Shown here: one piece after another, positions 54,333 to 64,000 of the stretch | Layout of the letters: the number at the start of each line of letters is the position of its first letter | Position numbering within the stretch: the stretch's first letter is position 1 | NCBI GenBank assembly: GCA_003216955.1 | Contig: QCHZ01000003.1 | Coordinates: 62,001-126,000, forward strand | Direction of reading: 5' to 3' | Length of the DNA stretch: 64,000 bases | Source of the DNA: Prochlorococcus sp. AG-402-I21 | GTDB taxonomy: Bacteria > Cyanobacteriota > Cyanobacteriia > PCC-6307 > Cyanobiaceae | Program-made: the position numbers and the translations under genes | Notes under the pieces: model-generated | What the model was told of the DNA's origin: nothing | The model's database searches: none | The model's input: only the letters and a program-made list of their open reading frames with translations

Positions 54333-54404
54333 GCGGATGTAGCTCAGTGGTAGAGCATCTCCTTGCCAAGGAGAATGTCGAGAGTTCGAATCTCTTCATC
54401 CGCT
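54333..54404 (+). tRNA. tRNA-Gly (anticodon GCC)
   Basis: A 72-base cloverleaf. Acceptor GCGGATG pairs with CATCCGC with discriminator T, D-arm GCTCAGTGGTAGAGC, anticodon stem TCTCC/GGAGA with loop TTGCCAA (anticodon GCC at 54365-54367), T-loop AGTTCGAATCT. CCA not encoded. Last core gene before ycf52 and the surface-polysaccharide locus. Confidence 0.97.
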
Positions 54405-55117: not shown

Positions 55118-56329
55118 ATGAAATCTGACTTTTATTATAAATTTGAAAATAGATTTCGTGGAGATGAAGACTCAATTCTTAAAGGCTTGTCCATATACGA
55201 TTCCTTGATTAATCAAGTTATTAGAGAAATATCTAATCCTAAAATTTTGGATGTAGGTTGTGGGAGAGGAGAATTTCTTCAAAAATGGCAAAAATATATT
55301 CCAAATGTTATTGGTATAGAAAATGATGCTAAAATGGCGAAAATTAGTAGATCAAAAGGCCTTGAAGTTATAGAAGATAATGCAATTAATTCTTTACAAC
55401 GATTGTCAGATAAATCTATATCTATAATTACTATCTTCCATATGGTTGAGCATATTGAATACGATCAACTATTTCAACTTTTGTCTGAATGCTCACGAGC
55501 TCTACAAGATGAAGGAATAATGATAATTGAGACACCTAGTATTGATAATTTGATTGTTTCAACAAAGAATTTCTATATTGATTATTCCCATAAAACACAT
55601 ATTAACCCTGATTCTTTTGCATTCATGATTGAGAATCTTGGCTTCGATAAAGTAAAGCATTATTTTCTTCGAGGTGGACCCTTAGAAGATACTGAACATA
55701 ATAAATTAACTAGACTCTTAAATGGTGTTGCTCAAGATTTATCATTTGTAGCAACTAAAAGTCAATTAATGAGTAATAATTTATTTGGTAAACATAGGGA
55801 ATGGGAGTCTGAACTAAGCGTTGGAATTACAACCATGAAAGCGGCTATAGAATTTGATCTTGCTAATGTTAAAGAATATAAATTATTGGAAGATAGAATT
55901 TCTTTACAACAGAATTCTATAAAACAGCAAGGCAAATTACTAGATGATATTAATCAAGAACTTAGATATTTTCTTAAAGTTCTAAAATATTTTAATAGAT
56001 CTATTAAACTCTCTTTAAAGTTGATAAAATTTTTTCTTCGTCTCTCTATAAATATATTAACAAAAGTCTTTAACTTTTTATTGAAGTTTCCTTTCTGTAA
56101 AAATATTTTGCTATCAAAGCCAATAAAAATATATATATTATTTATTCTAGATCTATTTCCAAAAAAATTAAAATCGATAATTATTGATAATATAAACAAA
56201 AAAATCGATAAAGTTTTAAAAATCGATTTAACTTCATCTTATAATAATAACAATTTAATTTCTCATTATGAAAGTTCTGATACAGCCAAAGATATTTATC
56301 AAAAGTTAATTAAGAATATTAAAAATTAA
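55118..56329 (+). CDS. SAM methyltransferase with coiled-coil and amphipathic tail
   Basis: From the ATG at 55118 it is 403 residues. Residues 40-230 are a class I SAM methyltransferase: ILDVGCGRGEF (43-53) is motif I, VIGIEND the acidic ribose contact, and HMVEHIE (108-114) the post-core. Residues about 240-285 are Lys/Glu/Gln-rich and predicted by eye to be a coiled coil, then 285-355 is basic and hydrophobic (RSIKLSLKLIKFFLRLSINIL), fit for membrane binding. This order (MTase, coil, amphipathic helices) resembles WbdD chain terminators minus their kinase. A TTG at 55082 would add 12 residues. The GT fusion starts four bases later. Confidence 0.82.
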   Translation: MKSDFYYKFENRFRGDEDSILKGLSIYDSLINQVIREISNPKILDVGCGRGEFLQKWQKYIPNVIGIENDAKMAKISRSKGLEVIEDNAINSLQRLSDKSISIITIFHMVEHIEYDQLFQLLSECSRALQDEGIMIIETPSIDNLIVSTKNFYIDYSHKTHINPDSFAFMIENLGFDKVKHYFLRGGPLEDTEHNKLTRLLNGVAQDLSFVATKSQLMSNNLFGKHREWESELSVGITTMKAAIEFDLANVKEYKLLEDRISLQQNSIKQQGKLLDDINQELRYFLKVLKYFNRSIKLSLKLIKFFLRLSINILTKVFNFLLKFPFCKNILLSKPIKIYILFILDLFPKKLKSIIIDNINKKIDKVLKIDLTSSYNNNNLISHYESSDTAKDIYQKLIKNIKN

Positions 56330-56333
56330 TATA

Positions 56334-59300
56334 ATGAGAATAGCTATTGATTTACAAGGATTGCAAAGTGATGGTAGTAGAAAGAGAGGTATTGGCAGAT
56401 ACTCTTTTGAAATAGTTAGGAACTTATTGAATGATCATGATACTAATGAATATGTTCTAGTTGCAAATTCTGCATTAAACGATGTTCGTGAGGAATTTCG
56501 TTCACATTTGAATAAATCTCAAAATATATCTTATATAAGTTGGTATTCTCCAACTCCTTTAAGTTTTATTAGTCATAAAGAAATTAATATAGAGTTAGGA
56601 AAATCTTTAAGATCATACACCTTTAATTGCCTGCATGCAGATATAATTATTGTCACAAGTTTTCTTGAAGGATTTTCAGATAATTCTCTAACTGAATTTG
56701 ACCATCAATTGTTAGAAACCCCTGTAATATCAATATTCTATGATTTAATTCCTTTATTAAATCCAGATTTATATTTAAACCTAAATCCAGAATTTTCAAA
56801 TTATTACTTTGCAAAATTAGAACTTTTAAAAAATTTTGATGCTTTATTGGCTATATCTAAATCATCTTCAGAAGAAGCTTTAAAATATTTAAATATAGAC
56901 GACTCTAAGATTTATAATATATCTTCTGCTTGTGATACGACACTATTTAATTCTAATACAAATATTAACCATAATCTTCATGATTTTTTTGATAGTACTT
57001 CCCCATTTTTGTTGTATTCTGGCGCAGGCGATCCTAGAAAAAATATCAAGAATTTGTTAAAAGCTTTTTCTGTATTGCCTACTGAAGTTAAAACAAAATA
57101 TCATTTAGTTTTAGTAGGTAAACTTTTACCTGAGGAGCTAATAATTATTAATGATTTGATCCAATCCTTAGATATTGTAGAAGATTATGTTCATATCCTT
57201 GGATACGTTTCAGATATTGATCTAGTCGCTTTGTATAGACAATGTTTCTTATTTATTTTTCCTTCTTTGCATGAAGGATTTGGACTTCCTGTCCTTGAGG
57301 CTATGAGCTGTGGTGCACCAGTTATAGGATCCTTTTCAACAAGTATTCCTGAGATAATTTGTAGAAAAGATGCCATGTTCGACCCAAATGATCCTGAGAA
57401 GATTAGAGACTTAATTCTTAAAGCAATTCAAGATGAGAAGTATCTTTATGATTTGAAGTCCAATTCCACGAAGCAAAGTGCAAAATTTTCATGGTCAAAT
57501 ACTGTCAACAATTTATTAAATGCTTGTACTATCATAATGAATGACAATTTAAAAGTTTCTGTCAATCAAGAATGGAAAATTATTCAAAAAACAAATAGCA
57601 ACTTTTTAGATAAACTCATTAATAAAATACAAATTATAATTAAAGATAAAGAAGATTACCAATTAATAAAAATTATATCCTCTTCAATAGACAAGATTAA
57701 TTTTGGCTTGAGTTCTTATTTAAGAAGAATATCACTTAGAAAAAATATCGATTCTTGGAAAGTTGAAGGTCCTTTTGACTCAAATTATAGTCTTGCAATC
57801 TTAAATAGATCATTTGTTTCTTCTATGGAAGATAAAGTTAATGATGTATCTATTCATATAACTGAAGGAGGAGGAGATTACAATGTAGATACATATTTTT
57901 TAAGTAAATTTTCGAATCTTTATTCTAAGTATCTAAAAAAAAATAATACAGAAATATCAGATGTCATTAGTCGCAATTTATATCCCCCACGTGTTTCTGA
58001 TCTTAATGCAAGGATTAATTTATTACACGCTTATGGTTGGGAAGAATCAGAGTTTCCAAAAAAATGGATTAATGATTTTAATATGTATCTTCAAGGAATA
58101 ACTGTCATGTCTACACAAGTAAAAAAAATATTAATAGATAATGGTGTTCATATACCAATTCAAGTTTGTGGTTTAGGTGTCAATCATTTAGAAACAAATC
58201 CTAGTTTTTCTAACTTAAGGATTAAGACAAAAAAATATAAATTCCTTCATATCTCTTCCTGTTTTCCTCGTAAAGGCATTGATATTTTATTGCAAGCATA
58301 CTTTGAAAAATTTACTAAATATGATGATGTTACATTGATTATAAAGACTTTTCAGAATCAACATAACAATGTCGAAGATTTAGTTAATACATTAAATAAA
58401 AATAATGCTCTGGCTCCAGATGTTCTCATTTTGAAAGATGATTTTAATGATATGGAAATGAGTTATTTATACTCTATTAGTGACGTTTTAGTAGCCCCAA
58501 GTCGAGGTGAAGGATTTGGATTGCCCATCGCTGAGGCAATGTATTTTAGAGTTCCTGTTATAACTACTGGCTGGGGCGGTCAATTAGATTTTTGTAATCA
58601 ATCTAATAGCTTTTTGATAGATTTTGTGTTTGTAAAATCACAATCTCATTTTGATTTAGATCTCTCTTATTGGGCAGAACCCTCCAGAAAACATTTAGCA
58701 GAGCTAATGTTTTCAATATATAAATCGGATCCTACTTATACCAGAAATAAAATAGATTTAGCACAACAATCAATCTCTAATTTCTCATGGAGCAAAGTTG
58801 CTAAAAAAAATATTTCATTTGCAAAAGAGTTGAACGAGATTTCCTCCGACTTTACTCAAAAATACGGTTGGGTAAGTTCATGGAATAGTAAATGTGGAAT
58901 AGCGTCATATTCCAAGCATCTGATAGATCATATTGAGCATGAAGTTATTGTTTTCTCTCCAGAATCAGAGCAAAAACTTCTACAGAAAAGCACCAATGTT
59001 ATTCCTTGCTGGAAATTAGATTCTTCAGAGGAAGACAACTTTGATCCTATTCTCACTAATATAAGAAAATTATCTATTTCTACACTTGTAGTCCAATTCA
59101 ACTATGGTTTTTTTGATTTTCCTAATTTTCAAAAGTTTTTAATTAATGCTTTAGCATTAGATATCAACATTGTTATTTTCTTTCATTCAACTCAAGATCC
59201 TATTAATAGTGAGTTAAAGAAATTAATTTCTATAGTTGATGTATTAAAAAAAGTAGATCGTATATTTGTTCATACTATATCTGATCTCAACCGTTTAAAG

Positions 59301-59987
59301 AAAATAGGTTTATTAGAGAATGTAATGTTATTTCCACATGGAATTCTTGAATATAAATCTATCAATTCTAATCTTAAAAAATTAAATTTTTTTGGTATTA
59401 CTAATCATAGAAGAATTGCCTCATTTGGCTTCTTGTTACCACATAAGGGTATCTTGGAACTGATAGAAGCAATTAATATTTTGAGGAACCAGAATTTCTT
59501 AGTTAAGTTGAACTTGATAAATGCAATGTATAGTGATAATTATAAATTTTTTTATGATGAGGTTGTGGAATTAATTTCATCACTCAATCTTAATAAATTA
59601 GTTAGCCTAAATATTAATTATTTAAGTGATGAAGATTCTTTAAATGCATTAGCTAAGAATGATTTAATTGTTTTTCCATATCAAACAACTCAAGAATCAT
59701 CGAGTGCATCTGTAAGGCATGGTTTGGCTACAGGGAGACCTGTTTTAGTAACACCATTAGATATATTTGAAGATGTTTCAGACCTTGTAAATATGACATC
59801 AGGTCTATCATCTCAAGATATAGCTAATAGTATAAGAAACTGGTATCAATTGACTTCTAATCAAAGCGATGAAAAAGATCACAATAAGAGGATGCAAATT
59901 ATTAATGAGCGTGGTTTCTCAAAATTAGCTCAACGCTTTAATTCCATAATTAAAGCTCTGTATGTCAATAAATTTCATTCAATCTAG
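56334..59987 (+). CDS. Triple GT-B glycosyltransferase fusion (1217 aa)
   Basis: Three family-4-type GT-B units in one chain. Unit 1 (about 1-400) starts MRIAIDLQGLQSDGSRKRGIGR and has E-x7-E at Glu314/Glu322 (HEGFGLPVLEAMSCGAPV). Unit 2 (about 510-835) has it at Glu726/Glu734 (SRGEGFGLPIAEAMYFRVPV). Unit 3 (about 842-1217) begins KYGWVSSWNSKCGIASYSKHL; its equivalent is ESSSASVRHGLATGRP, with Glu1121 but His1129 in place of the second Glu, so it may be altered or inactive. It is very AT-rich. No membrane span. It pairs with the upstream methyltransferase and likely builds a surface glycan from nucleotide sugars. Its end overlaps the next gene by 23 bases tail to tail. Confidence 0.87.
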   Translation: MRIAIDLQGLQSDGSRKRGIGRYSFEIVRNLLNDHDTNEYVLVANSALNDVREEFRSHLNKSQNISYISWYSPTPLSFISHKEINIELGKSLRSYTFNCLHADIIIVTSFLEGFSDNSLTEFDHQLLETPVISIFYDLIPLLNPDLYLNLNPEFSNYYFAKLELLKNFDALLAISKSSSEEALKYLNIDDSKIYNISSACDTTLFNSNTNINHNLHDFFDSTSPFLLYSGAGDPRKNIKNLLKAFSVLPTEVKTKYHLVLVGKLLPEELIIINDLIQSLDIVEDYVHILGYVSDIDLVALYRQCFLFIFPSLHEGFGLPVLEAMSCGAPVIGSFSTSIPEIICRKDAMFDPNDPEKIRDLILKAIQDEKYLYDLKSNSTKQSAKFSWSNTVNNLLNACTIIMNDNLKVSVNQEWKIIQKTNSNFLDKLINKIQIIIKDKEDYQLIKIISSSIDKINFGLSSYLRRISLRKNIDSWKVEGPFDSNYSLAILNRSFVSSMEDKVNDVSIHITEGGGDYNVDTYFLSKFSNLYSKYLKKNNTEISDVISRNLYPPRVSDLNARINLLHAYGWEESEFPKKWINDFNMYLQGITVMSTQVKKILIDNGVHIPIQVCGLGVNHLETNPSFSNLRIKTKKYKFLHISSCFPRKGIDILLQAYFEKFTKYDDVTLIIKTFQNQHNNVEDLVNTLNKNNALAPDVLILKDDFNDMEMSYLYSISDVLVAPSRGEGFGLPIAEAMYFRVPVITTGWGGQLDFCNQSNSFLIDFVFVKSQSHFDLDLSYWAEPSRKHLAELMFSIYKSDPTYTRNKIDLAQQSISNFSWSKVAKKNISFAKELNEISSDFTQKYGWVSSWNSKCGIASYSKHLIDHIEHEVIVFSPESEQKLLQKSTNVIPCWKLDSSEEDNFDPILTNIRKLSISTLVVQFNYGFFDFPNFQKFLINALALDINIVIFFHSTQDPINSELKKLISIVDVLKKVDRIFVHTISDLNRLKKIGLLENVMLFPHGILEYKSINSNLKKLNFFGITNHRRIASFGFLLPHKGILELIEAINILRNQNFLVKLNLINAMYSDNYKFFYDEVVELISSLNLNKLVSLNINYLSDEDSLNALAKNDLIVFPYQTTQESSSASVRHGLATGRPVLVTPLDIFEDVSDLVNMTSGLSSQDIANSIRNWYQLTSNQSDEKDHNKRMQIINERGFSKLAQRFNSIIKALYVNKFHSI

Positions 59988-60930
59988 GATGTAAATTGAT
60001 AAGTTTTTCTATAATTTCTTTGATATCGGTTTTTGCTTTCCATCCTAAATCTTTTTCCATCTTTGCTGGATCTCCATAACTTTTCTTGATTTCTGACTGT
60101 CGAAAAAATCTTTTATCAGAGATTACATGATCTCGCCAATCGAGTCCAAATTTATCGAATGTAATTTTTATAAACTCTTTGAGCGTGGTCAGTTTTCCTG
60201 TGCAGATGATTTGGTCTTCAATATTGTTCGAGTTCATCATGATTTGGACTCCTTCCATATAATCCTCCGCCCATCCCCAATCTCGTGAAATTTCAAGATT
60301 CCCTAAGATAAGCTTGTGATTCTTATTTTTTGTGCATTCAATTGCACCATTTATGATCTTCTGAGTCACAAATTTTGTATCTCTTAAATGTGATTCATGG
60401 TTAAAAAAAATTCCTGTGATTGCATTAATTCCATAACTTTCTTTGTATAGTTGACTAAGTATTAGACTTTGATATTTCGAGGCAGAATAAGGGCTTTTGA
60501 TGTTGATATTTGAGCCAAGATTCGCGGCTTGCTGAGTTTCACCAAAAATCTCGCCACTGCCAGAGAAAAAGACTTTCCCTTCATAACCTACTAATCTGCA
60601 AGCTTCTAAAATATTTGTCGTTGTGTTCACAATAGCTGTCTGGGTTTCGTGTGGAAGTTGAAAAGAAAGTCCTACAGATGATTGAGCAGCAAAATTGTAG
60701 ATATGTTCAGGCTGGATTCTTTTTAGCAAGTTCACAACCTCGGCTAAGTTTTCCATCGATACACATTGAATATCTACAGCGCCAGCTATTCCGATTGTTT
60801 GATGGTTTTTGTGCTCACTGACATTTTTTCTAGATGTTCCTATGACTTCTTGCCCACTTTCAAGGAGTGACTTGCAGAGAATTGATCCGTCTTGACCTGA
60901 ACAACCAATAATTAAGCTGGTTTTACCCAT
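59965..60930 (-). CDS. gmd: GDP-mannose 4,6-dehydratase-like enzyme
   Basis: Extended short-chain dehydrogenase of 321 residues. LIIGCSGQDGSIL (6-18) is the NAD(P)-binding motif, FSGSGEIFGETQQ (122-134) holds the catalytic Ser/Glu region, YSASK (148-152) the Tyr and Lys, and FFNHESHLRDTKFV and LEISRDWGWAEDYMEG are Gmd marks. It should make GDP-4-keto-6-deoxymannose, the start of GDP-fucose, GDP-rhamnose or GDP-perosamine routes. It is somewhat shorter than many Gmd proteins, so an epimerase/dehydratase relative is an alternative. No GDP-fucose synthase partner is in the window. Confidence 0.82.
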   Translation of the reverse strand: MGKTSLIIGCSGQDGSILCKSLLESGQEVIGTSRKNVSEHKNHQTIGIAGAVDIQCVSMENLAEVVNLLKRIQPEHIYNFAAQSSVGLSFQLPHETQTAIVNTTTNILEACRLVGYEGKVFFSGSGEIFGETQQAANLGSNINIKSPYSASKYQSLILSQLYKESYGINAITGIFFNHESHLRDTKFVTQKIINGAIECTKNKNHKLILGNLEISRDWGWAEDYMEGVQIMMNSNNIEDQIICTGKLTTLKEFIKITFDKFGLDWRDHVISDKRFFRQSEIKKSYGDPAKMEKDLGWKAKTDIKEIIEKLINLHPRLNEIY

Positions 60931-61477: not shown

Positions 61478-64000
61478 ATGGCTAAAGCGAACGCCACTGA
61501 ACTACAACAACTCTACATAGCGTATTTCGGTCGAGCCGCTGATCCGACAGGGCTTGAGTACTGGACTGGTCAAGAAACCACAACTAAGGCTTTCGCTGCA
61601 AGCATGTATGCCCAGCCTGAATTTAAGTCTGTATATGGTTCATTATCTACGGAAGCTCAAGTCAATCAGATATATCAAAATCTATTTGATAGAGATGCAG
61701 ATACTGCAGGATTGCTTTACTGGACTAATCAAATAAAGAGTGGAGCTTTAGAACTTGCTTCTATTGCTAACGATTTAATATATGCAGCTAATAACAATAG
61801 TGGAAGTGCAGATGACAAGAAAGCTTTAGATAATAAAACTGCTGCAGCTACGGCTTACACCGCTGAAGTCAAGAAAACAACAGCTGGAATACTTGCTTAT
61901 GCTGCTGCTTCTACAGATCCTTTCGTTGCAGGATCCAACATAGAGGCTGCAAAGTCATTCTTTGACGGAATTGACAAAGATACAACTCATACAGAAGCAC
62001 AAGTAATTGCAAGTGTTTCAACCATTAAGACAAATGGTGTTCAAACCACAGGTACTTATACCCTTACTTCAAATGCACCATCACTGACTGAGGGAGATAC
62101 AGGCACTAAGACGTTAGCTTTCACTCTAAGTCTTGATAAAGCGGCTACTGCAGATACAGCTGTTAACTACGAGACTCTTTCAACAGGAAGTGCAACACCT
62201 GGTGATGATTTCGTAGCCACATCTGGTCAAGTAACATTCGCTAAAGGACAAAAAACAGCAACAGTAAATGTAACTATCAATAACGACACTGATTATGAAA
62301 GTGAAGGAGTAGCAGAAACAGTAGATATTAAATTTTCTAGTACTTCATTAACAGCTGATGTAACTGCTACTGGTTCTATTACAGAGAACGATTCAGCTCC
62401 TGTTGCTTCTACTCCAACCACTTATACACTTACTTCAGATTCACCATCAATTACTGAAGGTGATACAGAAACTAAAACTCTTGCTTTCACTCTAAGTCTT
62501 GATAAAGCTGCTACATCAGCAACAACTATCAATTACGAGACTTTGACTACTGGTTCAGCTACTCCTGGTGATGATTTCGTAGCTGCATCTGGAACAGTTA
62601 GTTTTGCTGAAGGTCAAAAAACTGCCACTGTCAACATAACTGTCAATAACGACACTGATTATGAAAGTGAAGGAGTAGCAGAAACAGTAGAGATTAAGTT
62701 CTCCGGTTCATCTTTGACTGCTGATGTGACAGCTTCAGGATCCATTAAAGAGAATGAAACTGATCCAGATTTAGTAGCTAAATCACTAACATTGACAACA
62801 GGTGTAGATACATTAACTGGAAAGAAAGGAAACGATACATTTGATGGTTCTACAGCTGGTTCGATGGATACCAGTGACACCATTGAAGGTGGAGATGGTA
62901 CAGATACTCTCTCTTTCACTATTGCAGGTGAGTCAATCCGTCCAACAATTAAAAACGTTGAGAAGATTAATTTTACTGCAACTGCTGACACCCTCAATAT
63001 TGATACAAGAAGCATTACTGGCGTAACTGAATTTACAAACGAATCCAGTGTTGGTGCATCTGCAATAAACAACCTTGCAACAATCCCGACAGTCACTATC
63101 AACAGTGCTTCCTCTGCTGCTGATCAGACTATTAACTTCCTTGACGCAACACTTTCTGGAACATCAGATGAACTAACAATTAATCTGAACAATTTTGGTG
63201 GCTCATCAGACATTATTGTTACTGATGCAGGTGGTACGACAAATAAACTAGAGACAATAATTTTTAACGCTACTTCTTTGCCAAGTACAGTTACTGATTT
63301 GAGAACTGATGATGGTACTGATGCTGATGTTGGAACAACAACTATTAAAGCTACTGGTGATGAATTACTAACCATTTCTACTGCTCTTGATACATCAATT
63401 ACAACCGTTGATTCGACAGGTTCAACTGGTGGTCTTGTTGCAACTGGTGCCAATACCACTGGAATGACAATGAAAGGTGGTTCTGGCCCTGACAGTTTCA
63501 CTTCTACATCAGGTGCAGATACTCTTGAAGGTGGAGCTGGTAAAGATACTCTTGTTCCATCGACAGGCATTGATACTGTCAAAGGTGGAGCAGGTAACGA
63601 CACAATCAAGCTTGCTGCAAACGACTTAACAGAAAAGGACACAATCGATGGTGGCGCTGGAACAGACACAATTGAGTACACAACTGATGAAGTTCATGCT
63701 GACGCTGATTTCACTCTTGTTAGTAATTTAGAAGTCATCACTGCAACTGCAAACAAGAATATCACTGCCGTTCTTGGGCCTTTGAGTGCTGCTGCTGGTC
63801 TTAATAGTATTGTTCTTGCAGATACTGAAGCTATTGACTCAATCACAATCAATAAGGATTTTACAAATGATTTGAGTGTCACACTGGTCGCTGATGGTAC
63901 CGCTAACAGTGGAAATTACAACAAAGTCGTAGCTAATGCTGATTACGCAAAAACTCTTTCAGTGACTGGAAAAGTTTCTGATATGGATGATGGTGATGGA
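61478..64000 (+). CDS. Large RTX-like surface protein, DUF4214 and Calx-beta repeats (partial)
   Basis: Open from the ATG at 61478 to the right edge (841 codons seen). Residues about 5-75 form a DUF4214-type region (LYIAYFGRAADPTGLEYW, then NLFDRDADTAGLLYW). Residues 193-436 hold two Calx-beta-like repeats of 122 residues, each with SITEGDT/SLTEGDT and NNDTDYESEG. Residues about 470-725 carry scattered RTX-type Gly/Asp repeats (GGDGTDTL; GGAGKDTL, GGAGNDTI, GGAGTDTI), which bind calcium in type I secreted proteins. No N-terminal signal peptide, consistent with type I export. GC is visibly higher than in the GT genes. The C-terminus is not seen. No Shine-Dalgarno precedes the start. Confidence 0.88.
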   Translation, partial: MAKANATELQQLYIAYFGRAADPTGLEYWTGQETTTKAFAASMYAQPEFKSVYGSLSTEAQVNQIYQNLFDRDADTAGLLYWTNQIKSGALELASIANDLIYAANNNSGSADDKKALDNKTAAATAYTAEVKKTTAGILAYAAASTDPFVAGSNIEAAKSFFDGIDKDTTHTEAQVIASVSTIKTNGVQTTGTYTLTSNAPSLTEGDTGTKTLAFTLSLDKAATADTAVNYETLSTGSATPGDDFVATSGQVTFAKGQKTATVNVTINNDTDYESEGVAETVDIKFSSTSLTADVTATGSITENDSAPVASTPTTYTLTSDSPSITEGDTETKTLAFTLSLDKAATSATTINYETLTTGSATPGDDFVAASGTVSFAEGQKTATVNITVNNDTDYESEGVAETVEIKFSGSSLTADVTASGSIKENETDPDLVAKSLTLTTGVDTLTGKKGNDTFDGSTAGSMDTSDTIEGGDGTDTLSFTIAGESIRPTIKNVEKINFTATADTLNIDTRSITGVTEFTNESSVGASAINNLATIPTVTINSASSAADQTINFLDATLSGTSDELTINLNNFGGSSDIIVTDAGGTTNKLETIIFNATSLPSTVTDLRTDDGTDADVGTTTIKATGDELLTISTALDTSITTVDSTGSTGGLVATGANTTGMTMKGGSGPDSFTSTSGADTLEGGAGKDTLVPSTGIDTVKGGAGNDTIKLAANDLTEKDTIDGGAGTDTIEYTTDEVHADADFTLVSNLEVITATANKNITAVLGPLSAAAGLNSIVLADTEAIDSITINKDFTNDLSVTLVADGTANSGNYNKVVANADYAKTLSVTGKVSDMDDGDG
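62054..62785 (+). repeat. Two 366-base Calx-beta repeats
   Basis: Unit 1 starts at 62054 and unit 2 at 62420, each encoding 122 residues. Both begin TYTLTS and contain TLAFTLSLDKAAT, PGDDFVA and NNDTDYESEGVAETV. A 49-base stretch is identical in the two units (62277-62325 and 62643-62691). Confidence 0.85.

Follow-up and report, generated by a model that had tools for sequence, protein, structure and literature searches.

The window, a 64,000-nt stretch of DNA (C3:62001-126000), belongs to a 1.73-Mb Prochlorococcus genome whose close relatives named in public genomes are Prochlorococcus single-cell assemblies. It encodes on the plus strand a 403-aa SAM methyltransferase (MT; 55118..56329), a proposed non-reducing-end cap enzyme or chain terminator, and, after a gap of 4 bp, a 1217-aa triple GT-B (GT4-like) glycosyltransferase (GT3; 56334..59987), a proposed O-polysaccharide polymerase. 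The following gene, on the minus strand, codes for a GMD-like SDR, a GDP-sugar enzyme (59965..60930; PF16363 GDP_Man_Dehyd, 3e-76) that is kept in relatives; it is convergent with GT3, and their 3' ends overlap by 23 bp. An earlier, sequence-only reading had placed a SAM methyltransferase, a triple GT-B protein of 1217 residues four bases behind it, and a GDP-mannose dehydratase-like gene at exactly these positions, and Pfam agrees on all three. The last gene of the window (61478..64000, plus strand, continuing to C3:130653) is the 5' part of a 2391-aa DUF4214/Calx-beta/RTX protein, proposed to be a type I-secreted surface protein.

A tRNA-Gly(GCC) gene (54333..54404, plus strand; ARAGORN and Rfam) lies 0.7 kb upstream of a low-GC island and is its likely boundary, and the GC content falls from approximately 0.34 to 0.26-0.30 across MT-GT3. 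Together, the flanking tRNA and the GC drop suggest that this region is an acquired island. Downstream of the window, the same contig carries, in order, the rest of the RTX protein, a 2OG-Fe(II) oxygenase-like gene, HlyD with a type I ABC exporter, a PPIC isomerase, a full gmd, an M10 protease with DUF4214, secA, a Wzt-like ATPase, and a Wzm-like permease. The whole island order, from MT/GT3 to Wzt/Wzm, is also present in two other genomes (G033 and G034); a third (G147) shows it as far as its contig extends, which breaks off within GT3. Since the MT-GT3-SDR order recurs across the genus, the arrangement is not due to chance. Among the remaining island genes, the oxygenase-like gene (L003:15732-16415), a possible modifying enzyme, is directly 3' of the giant RTX gene; the M10-type metalloprotease (L004:2933-4126, i.e., C3:137932-139125) has a C-terminal DUF4214 and adjoins gmd; and two TPR-rich proteins are located at the far side of the island (L005:1793-5203).

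MT matches Methyltransf_11/23/25 in Pfam, and its start (ATG at 55118) is the same in 25 orthologues of the genus alignment. Residues 1-215 (55118..55762) form the class I catalytic domain with the motifs DVGCGRGE and ETPSIDNL. An AlphaFold2 model of the protein (pLDDT 87.7, from an alignment of 33 sequences) shows a Rossmann class I MT, one helix, and basic helices extending to residue 402. The helix is a coil-like spacer, predicted to be continuous over the 84 residues 239-322 (55832..56083), and is followed by basic, hydrophobic C-terminal helices (56090..56326), for which contact with the membrane and/or the polymerase is proposed; the last 124 residues have a net charge of +16 and are 48% hydrophobic. 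The coiled-coil-like segment and basic tail of the sequence-only reading are thus found in the model as a long helix and basic helices, but the heptads are weak here: by an ad hoc heptad score made for this analysis, this protein reaches p=0.13, and roughly half of 32 family proteins reach p<=0.05. Overall, this is a short and variable segment with weak heptads. Structure prediction of the tail had been proposed as a check, with a structure lacking any coil held to count against the idea; one long helix was predicted. "Coil plus amphipathic tail" would therefore be a fair description of the modelled C-terminal part, and a coiled-coil ruler role is no more than plausible.

The best PDB profile match of MT is 3dli (2e-58), and both the profile search and Foldseek returned this structure together with sugar or small-molecule MTs. 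WbdD, the E. coli terminator to which MT had been compared, was absent from the PDB profile matches shown and from the top 50 Foldseek matches, and we therefore rejected MT as a WbdD by homology. The WbdD kinase domain, noted as missing from the beginning, was indeed found in neither Pfam nor NCBIfam searches, and the MT core runs straight into the helix.

GT3 matches Glycos_transf_1 / Glyco_trans_1_4 in up to three stretches (Pfam), corresponding to unit 1 (56334..57548; EX7E at E314/E322), unit 2 (57741..58823; E726/E734), and unit 3 (58866..59984), all on the plus strand. Across 23 aligned sequences from the genus, the EX7E of units 1 and 2 never varies; unit 3 has a single conserved Glu (the invariant E1121), the second one being absent. 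The EX7E motif of retaining GT4-type GT-B enzymes is hence present in the first two units and not in the third.

Distribution of the gene pair and its neighbors

The MT-GT3 pair was found in about 28 of 37 Prochlorococcus genomes, where GT3 is full length and in many relatives the two frames overlap by 4 bp. No GT3 was detected in other genera of the order among 248 near-complete genomes sampled. Within the order sampled, a fusion of Wzt with DUF4214 (described below) is likewise confined to Prochlorococcus, and both features occur together in 26 of the 37 genomes (fusion alone in 1, GT3 alone in 2, neither in 8; Fisher 1e-5), a count that covers one genus with incomplete genomes. G147 was discarded as a genome having the fusion without GT3, because its contig ends inside GT3.

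A scan of bacterial genomes yielded a total of 80 GT3 loci, 64 of which are outside Prochlorococcus: in several classes of Proteobacteria, Campylobacterota, a Desulfosporosinus, and a few cyanobacteria. For the 39 of these that span at least 20 kb, the genes encoded within 10 kb include Wzt in 34 loci, Wzm in 32, a GMD-like SDR in 21, and a member of this MT family in 20. The usual order, including that of Proteobacterial operons, is Wzm-Wzt-MT-GT3, often with 4-bp overlaps. In one member of Comamonadaceae (L121), MT and GT3 are fused into a single protein of 1626 aa, and in other lineages (L084 and L092), the slot before GT3 is filled by an FkbM methyltransferase (PF05050). Most Wzt proteins scanned from these non-Prochlorococcus clusters carry Wzt_C (PF14524), a sugar-binding domain of the capped-chain type.

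Some loci departed from this pattern. In two marine gammaproteobacteria (L116:8304-10001 and L117:6474-8219), the slot before GT3 encodes a protein of about 570 aa with a sulfotransferase-like N-terminus (FIHSxFRxGSTY) and no Pfam match, raising the possibility of a sulfate cap. In a second locus class (L087 and L133-L153), the GT3 match is shorter, covering about residues 170-1210, and the MT domain is C-terminal in a protein of approximately 360-570 aa, an inverted terminator domain order. Three contigs labelled as Pelagibacter, Flavobacteriales, and Proteobacteria MAGs (L075, L078, and L080) have the Prochlorococcus MT-GT3-SDR-DUF4214 order with 44-50% GT3 identity and are probably mis-binned Prochlorococcus contigs.

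The Wzm/Wzt exporter and the proposed role of the methyltransferase

Wzm and Wzt had been reported as not seen, which is true of the window and not of the genome: a Wzt-like ATPase (C3:142152-143522; PF00005) overlapped by a Wzm-like permease (PF01061; together C3:142152-144294) lies just outside it on the same contig. A genome with no ABC-2 polysaccharide exporter at all would have counted against the idea; this genome has one. The pair is located about 20 kb downstream of MT/GT3, past secA, so that in Prochlorococcus it does not form one operon with them. The best NCBIfam matches are galactan export Wzt/RfbE (2e-54) and Wzm/RfbD (3e-27), both below their cut-offs. The carbohydrate-binding Wzt domain that was also to be sought in the genome gave a different result, since Pfam detected no Wzt_C on this Wzt; the protein has instead about 200 extra N-terminal residues matching DUF4214. 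A second ABC2 match (C2:258719) was rejected as an exporter, being a different permease with no Wzt-like neighbor in the stretch read. In addition, a PF02397 protein at C4:148970 is a candidate initiating phosphoglycosyltransferase, and one Wzy_C protein, which received no NCBIfam assignment, is at most a tentative candidate for a WaaL ligase. Two marks of ABC-dependent O-polysaccharide synthesis, Wzm plus Wzt in the genome and a cytosolic multi-domain polymerase, are therefore present.

Comparison supports placing the MT-GT3 pair in an ABC-exporter-dependent polysaccharide system. Considering the Wzm-Wzt-MT-GT3 operons, the MT-GT3 fusion, the FkbM proteins in the cap slot, and the genome's own Wzm/Wzt, the best reading is that GT3 would polymerize and MT would cap a chain for ABC export. 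The sequence-only idea of a pair that polymerizes and caps a surface glycan hence stands in outline; of its WbdD/WbdA-like label, the role is supported by comparison, but membership in the WbdD family is not, with no kinase and no WbdD among the profile matches shown or the top 50 fold matches.

Methylation of internal residues is common in polysaccharides, and the short, weakly heptadic coil would also suit a tailoring enzyme that places internal O-methyl groups in a capsule or exopolysaccharide rather than ending the chain. We regard this as unlikely, as the slot after a Wzt bearing Wzt_C, which such MTs occupy in other phyla, matches that of terminated O-antigen systems (PMC11231755). In those systems, the cap is added by the terminator and read by a sugar-binding module of Wzt; one terminator has a CBM itself (PMC11231755).

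DUF4214 on the exporter, the proposed surface protein, and the methyltransferase

The feature that goes beyond the sequence-only reading is the DUF4214 domain (PF13946) common to the exporter and the surface protein. The RTX protein begins with a DUF4214 domain of about 190 aa (61478..62053, plus strand) that is homologous to the N-terminus of Wzt (32% identity over 186 alignment columns, E 6e-28 by BLASTP). The two domains score 41 (Wzt) and 60 (RTX) bits against a gathering threshold of 23.2. Comparison of 25 Wzt proteins with the RTX N-termini of the genus revealed 33 positions that are conserved and identical in both and five that are conserved but different; the residues conserved in both may be structural. 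W28, W85, Y12, and R18 (Wzt numbering) are among the conserved ones. Elsewhere in the family, the listed frames of the nearest Wzt relatives (about 255-300 aa) contain no Wzt_C and no DUF4214, so it appears from the sequences that DUF4214 was added to Wzt in Prochlorococcus, the genus that also has GT3, and not swapped for Wzt_C.

DUF4214 has also been joined to these proteins independently elsewhere. An Epsilonproteobacterial Wzt (L124) carries it at the C-terminus, the usual position of Wzt_C (E 8e-26), and in six other lineages (L087, L133, L140, L143, L144, and L153) the cap-slot MT bears at its N-terminus a DUF4214 that passes the Pfam cut-off, with a coil-like segment between the DUF4214 and MT domains in L144. 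A search by near-full-length similarity in 386 cyanobacterial genomes found DUF4214-Wzt fusions in Prochlorococcus only, and among 298 genomes from the class of L124, the one with L124 itself was the only one to have such a fusion. By our own HMM, approximately 27 of the 64 non-Prochlorococcus loci have a DUF4214 ORF, and 25 of these have one within 10 kb that is separate from the recognized MT, Wzt, and GT3 genes; such separate ORFs encode RTX proteins, trypsin-like, M10, and reprolysin-like proteases, and FG-GAP proteins. In 35 genomes, 29 DUF4214 ORFs were seen versus 1.65 expected, a ratio inflated by the loci having been chosen with the matches in view. A separate nearby DUF4214 ORF was commoner in loci that also have the domain on MT, Wzt, or GT3, at only p=0.05.

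What the domain recognizes may be considered from its company. Only the glycan would be encountered by all of these proteins, the cytosolic MT and Wzt as well as the secreted ones, and glycan recognition is therefore the simplest common role. DUF4214 may accordingly be an all-helical O-polysaccharide-recognition module placed, for one and the same glycan, on the terminator MT (in other lineages), on Wzt, and on secreted RTX proteins and proteases, a proposal to which we give a little less than an even chance. Phycobilisome linker domains, which bind proteins, point in another direction. They are the nearest solved folds to the AlphaFold2 model of DUF4214 (pLDDT 96), although weakly so (Foldseek prob 0.97, E 0.39), and a profile search also gave a weak sequence likeness to them (6e-5); single-sequence phmmer against the PDB gave nothing convincing. 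DUF4214 could then be a protein-protein or oligomerization module that couples exporter, terminator, and surface proteins without touching sugar. We consider this somewhat unlikely: in L124, the domain occupies the position of the sugar-binding module of other systems, and it is found on proteases and RTX proteins that are expected to be secreted and would have no contact with MT or Wzt in the cytosol, in contrast to the glycan, with which each of these proteins would come into contact.

An RsaA-like O-antigen anchor was also tried as a relative of DUF4214 and rejected, as neither a profile search nor Foldseek of the pLDDT-96 model returned RsaA. PF13946 had no match in the Caulobacter control genome.

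A proposed route of polymerization, capping, export, and docking

The explanation that we favor, and hold to be moderately probable, is that the island builds, methyl-caps, and exports a surface polysaccharide, with DUF4214 reading the finished chain on Wzt and docking the RTX protein on it outside. Following the ABC-transporter-dependent route, the locus would produce a surface polysaccharide linked to polyprenol. Nucleotide sugars would serve GT3 as donors for chain extension and are probably 6-deoxy sugars derived from GDP-mannose; the GMD-type enzymes point to a GDP-6-deoxy-sugar, and mannose itself is no more than plausible as the sugar of the polymer. The helix and basic tail may hold MT beside GT3 at the membrane, where methylation of the non-reducing end would stop growth, and Wzm/Wzt would export the finished chain. 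In Prochlorococcus, recognition of that chain might fall to the N-terminal DUF4214 of Wzt in place of a C-terminal Wzt_C, and the giant RTX protein would dock on the same glycan outside via its own N-terminal DUF4214. The presence of the domain on both proteins suggests that the same sugar-recognizing part may serve both to ship the chain and to dock proteins on it.

Known systems offer several parallels. E. coli O9a/O8 WbdD-WbdA likewise has a separate terminator (MT, helical spacer, C-terminal region), a multi-GT polymerase, an ABC exporter, and GDP-sugar enzymes; the Prochlorococcus MT differs in having no kinase, GT3 in having three GT units, and Wzt in having an N-terminal DUF4214 and no Wzt_C. 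The WbdD homologue of E. coli O8 is a methyltransferase only (PMC3482155). WsaE of Geobacillus stearothermophilus shares MT and GT modules, a methyl cap, and Wzm/Wzt export of a surface glycan (PMC2943079), but it is a single polypeptide with two GT units serving an S-layer glycoprotein, in contrast to the two genes and three GT units of Prochlorococcus (fused only in the relative L121). The Klebsiella O7 terminator-polymerase ORF6 is similar in its N-terminal MT, its GT modules, and a coiled coil, to which the predicted helix of the Prochlorococcus MT may correspond, and has a predicted carbohydrate-binding module (PMC11231755); it includes a kinase and this CBM is Ig-fold, whereas Prochlorococcus has no kinase and the extra module in its relatives is the helical DUF4214. 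With Caulobacter RsaA, an RTX surface protein with an O-antigen-docking N-terminus (PMC6978808), the likeness is in idea only, with no sequence or fold match. By analogy, the locus would work like the WbdD(O8)/WbdA or WsaE systems, as a variant whose exporter has another candidate domain for recognizing the chain.

The comparison with WsaE also raises the possibility of an S-layer-type glycan that is transferred onto the RTX protein, as in WsaE/SgsE. Polymerase, cap, and exporter would be unchanged, and DUF4214 would be a mere protein-family marker. The layout of an MT, a multi-GT protein, and Wzm/Wzt beside a giant surface-type protein is indeed that of the G. stearothermophilus slg cluster (PMC2943079). 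However, the RTX gene adjoins type I secretion system genes, and its product should therefore bypass the periplasm, where transfer would occur; moreover, no oligosaccharyltransferase was identified, and DUF4214 on Wzt and MT would be left unexplained. We thus consider glycosylation of the RTX protein quite improbable.

Under the favored explanation of a capped chain read by DUF4214, the island is an apparently near-complete polymerize-cap-export-dock system in Prochlorococcus, a genus from which, as from marine Synechococcus, most genes for polysaccharide assembly are described as lost (PMC4594306). It is plausible that phage and grazers interact with cells through surface glycans. If the helical DUF4214 did gate export where other systems use Wzt_C, this would be a novel mechanism for ABC-dependent glycan export and DUF4214 a new kind of export-gating domain, which would give a function to a large uncharacterized domain family. 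If DUF4214 reads the glycan, this domain of unknown function, carried by many secreted bacterial proteins, would have a testable role, and its sharing between two proteins makes a clear binding experiment possible.

Several further DUF4214 sequences were encountered. Proteases with this domain recur near other GT3 clusters (L102, L140, and L153). Additional segments, matched by our own HMM only, lie in or beside cap-slot or GT3 genes (L113:7839-10004, with an FkbM-like gene; L110:4855-5523; and L134:524-5035, where DUF4214 is fused to GT3). The genome analyzed here encodes three more DUF4214 proteins (L010 at C18:573, and L008 and L009 at C5:71497 and 66176), whose Pfam scores are much stronger than those of the island copies.
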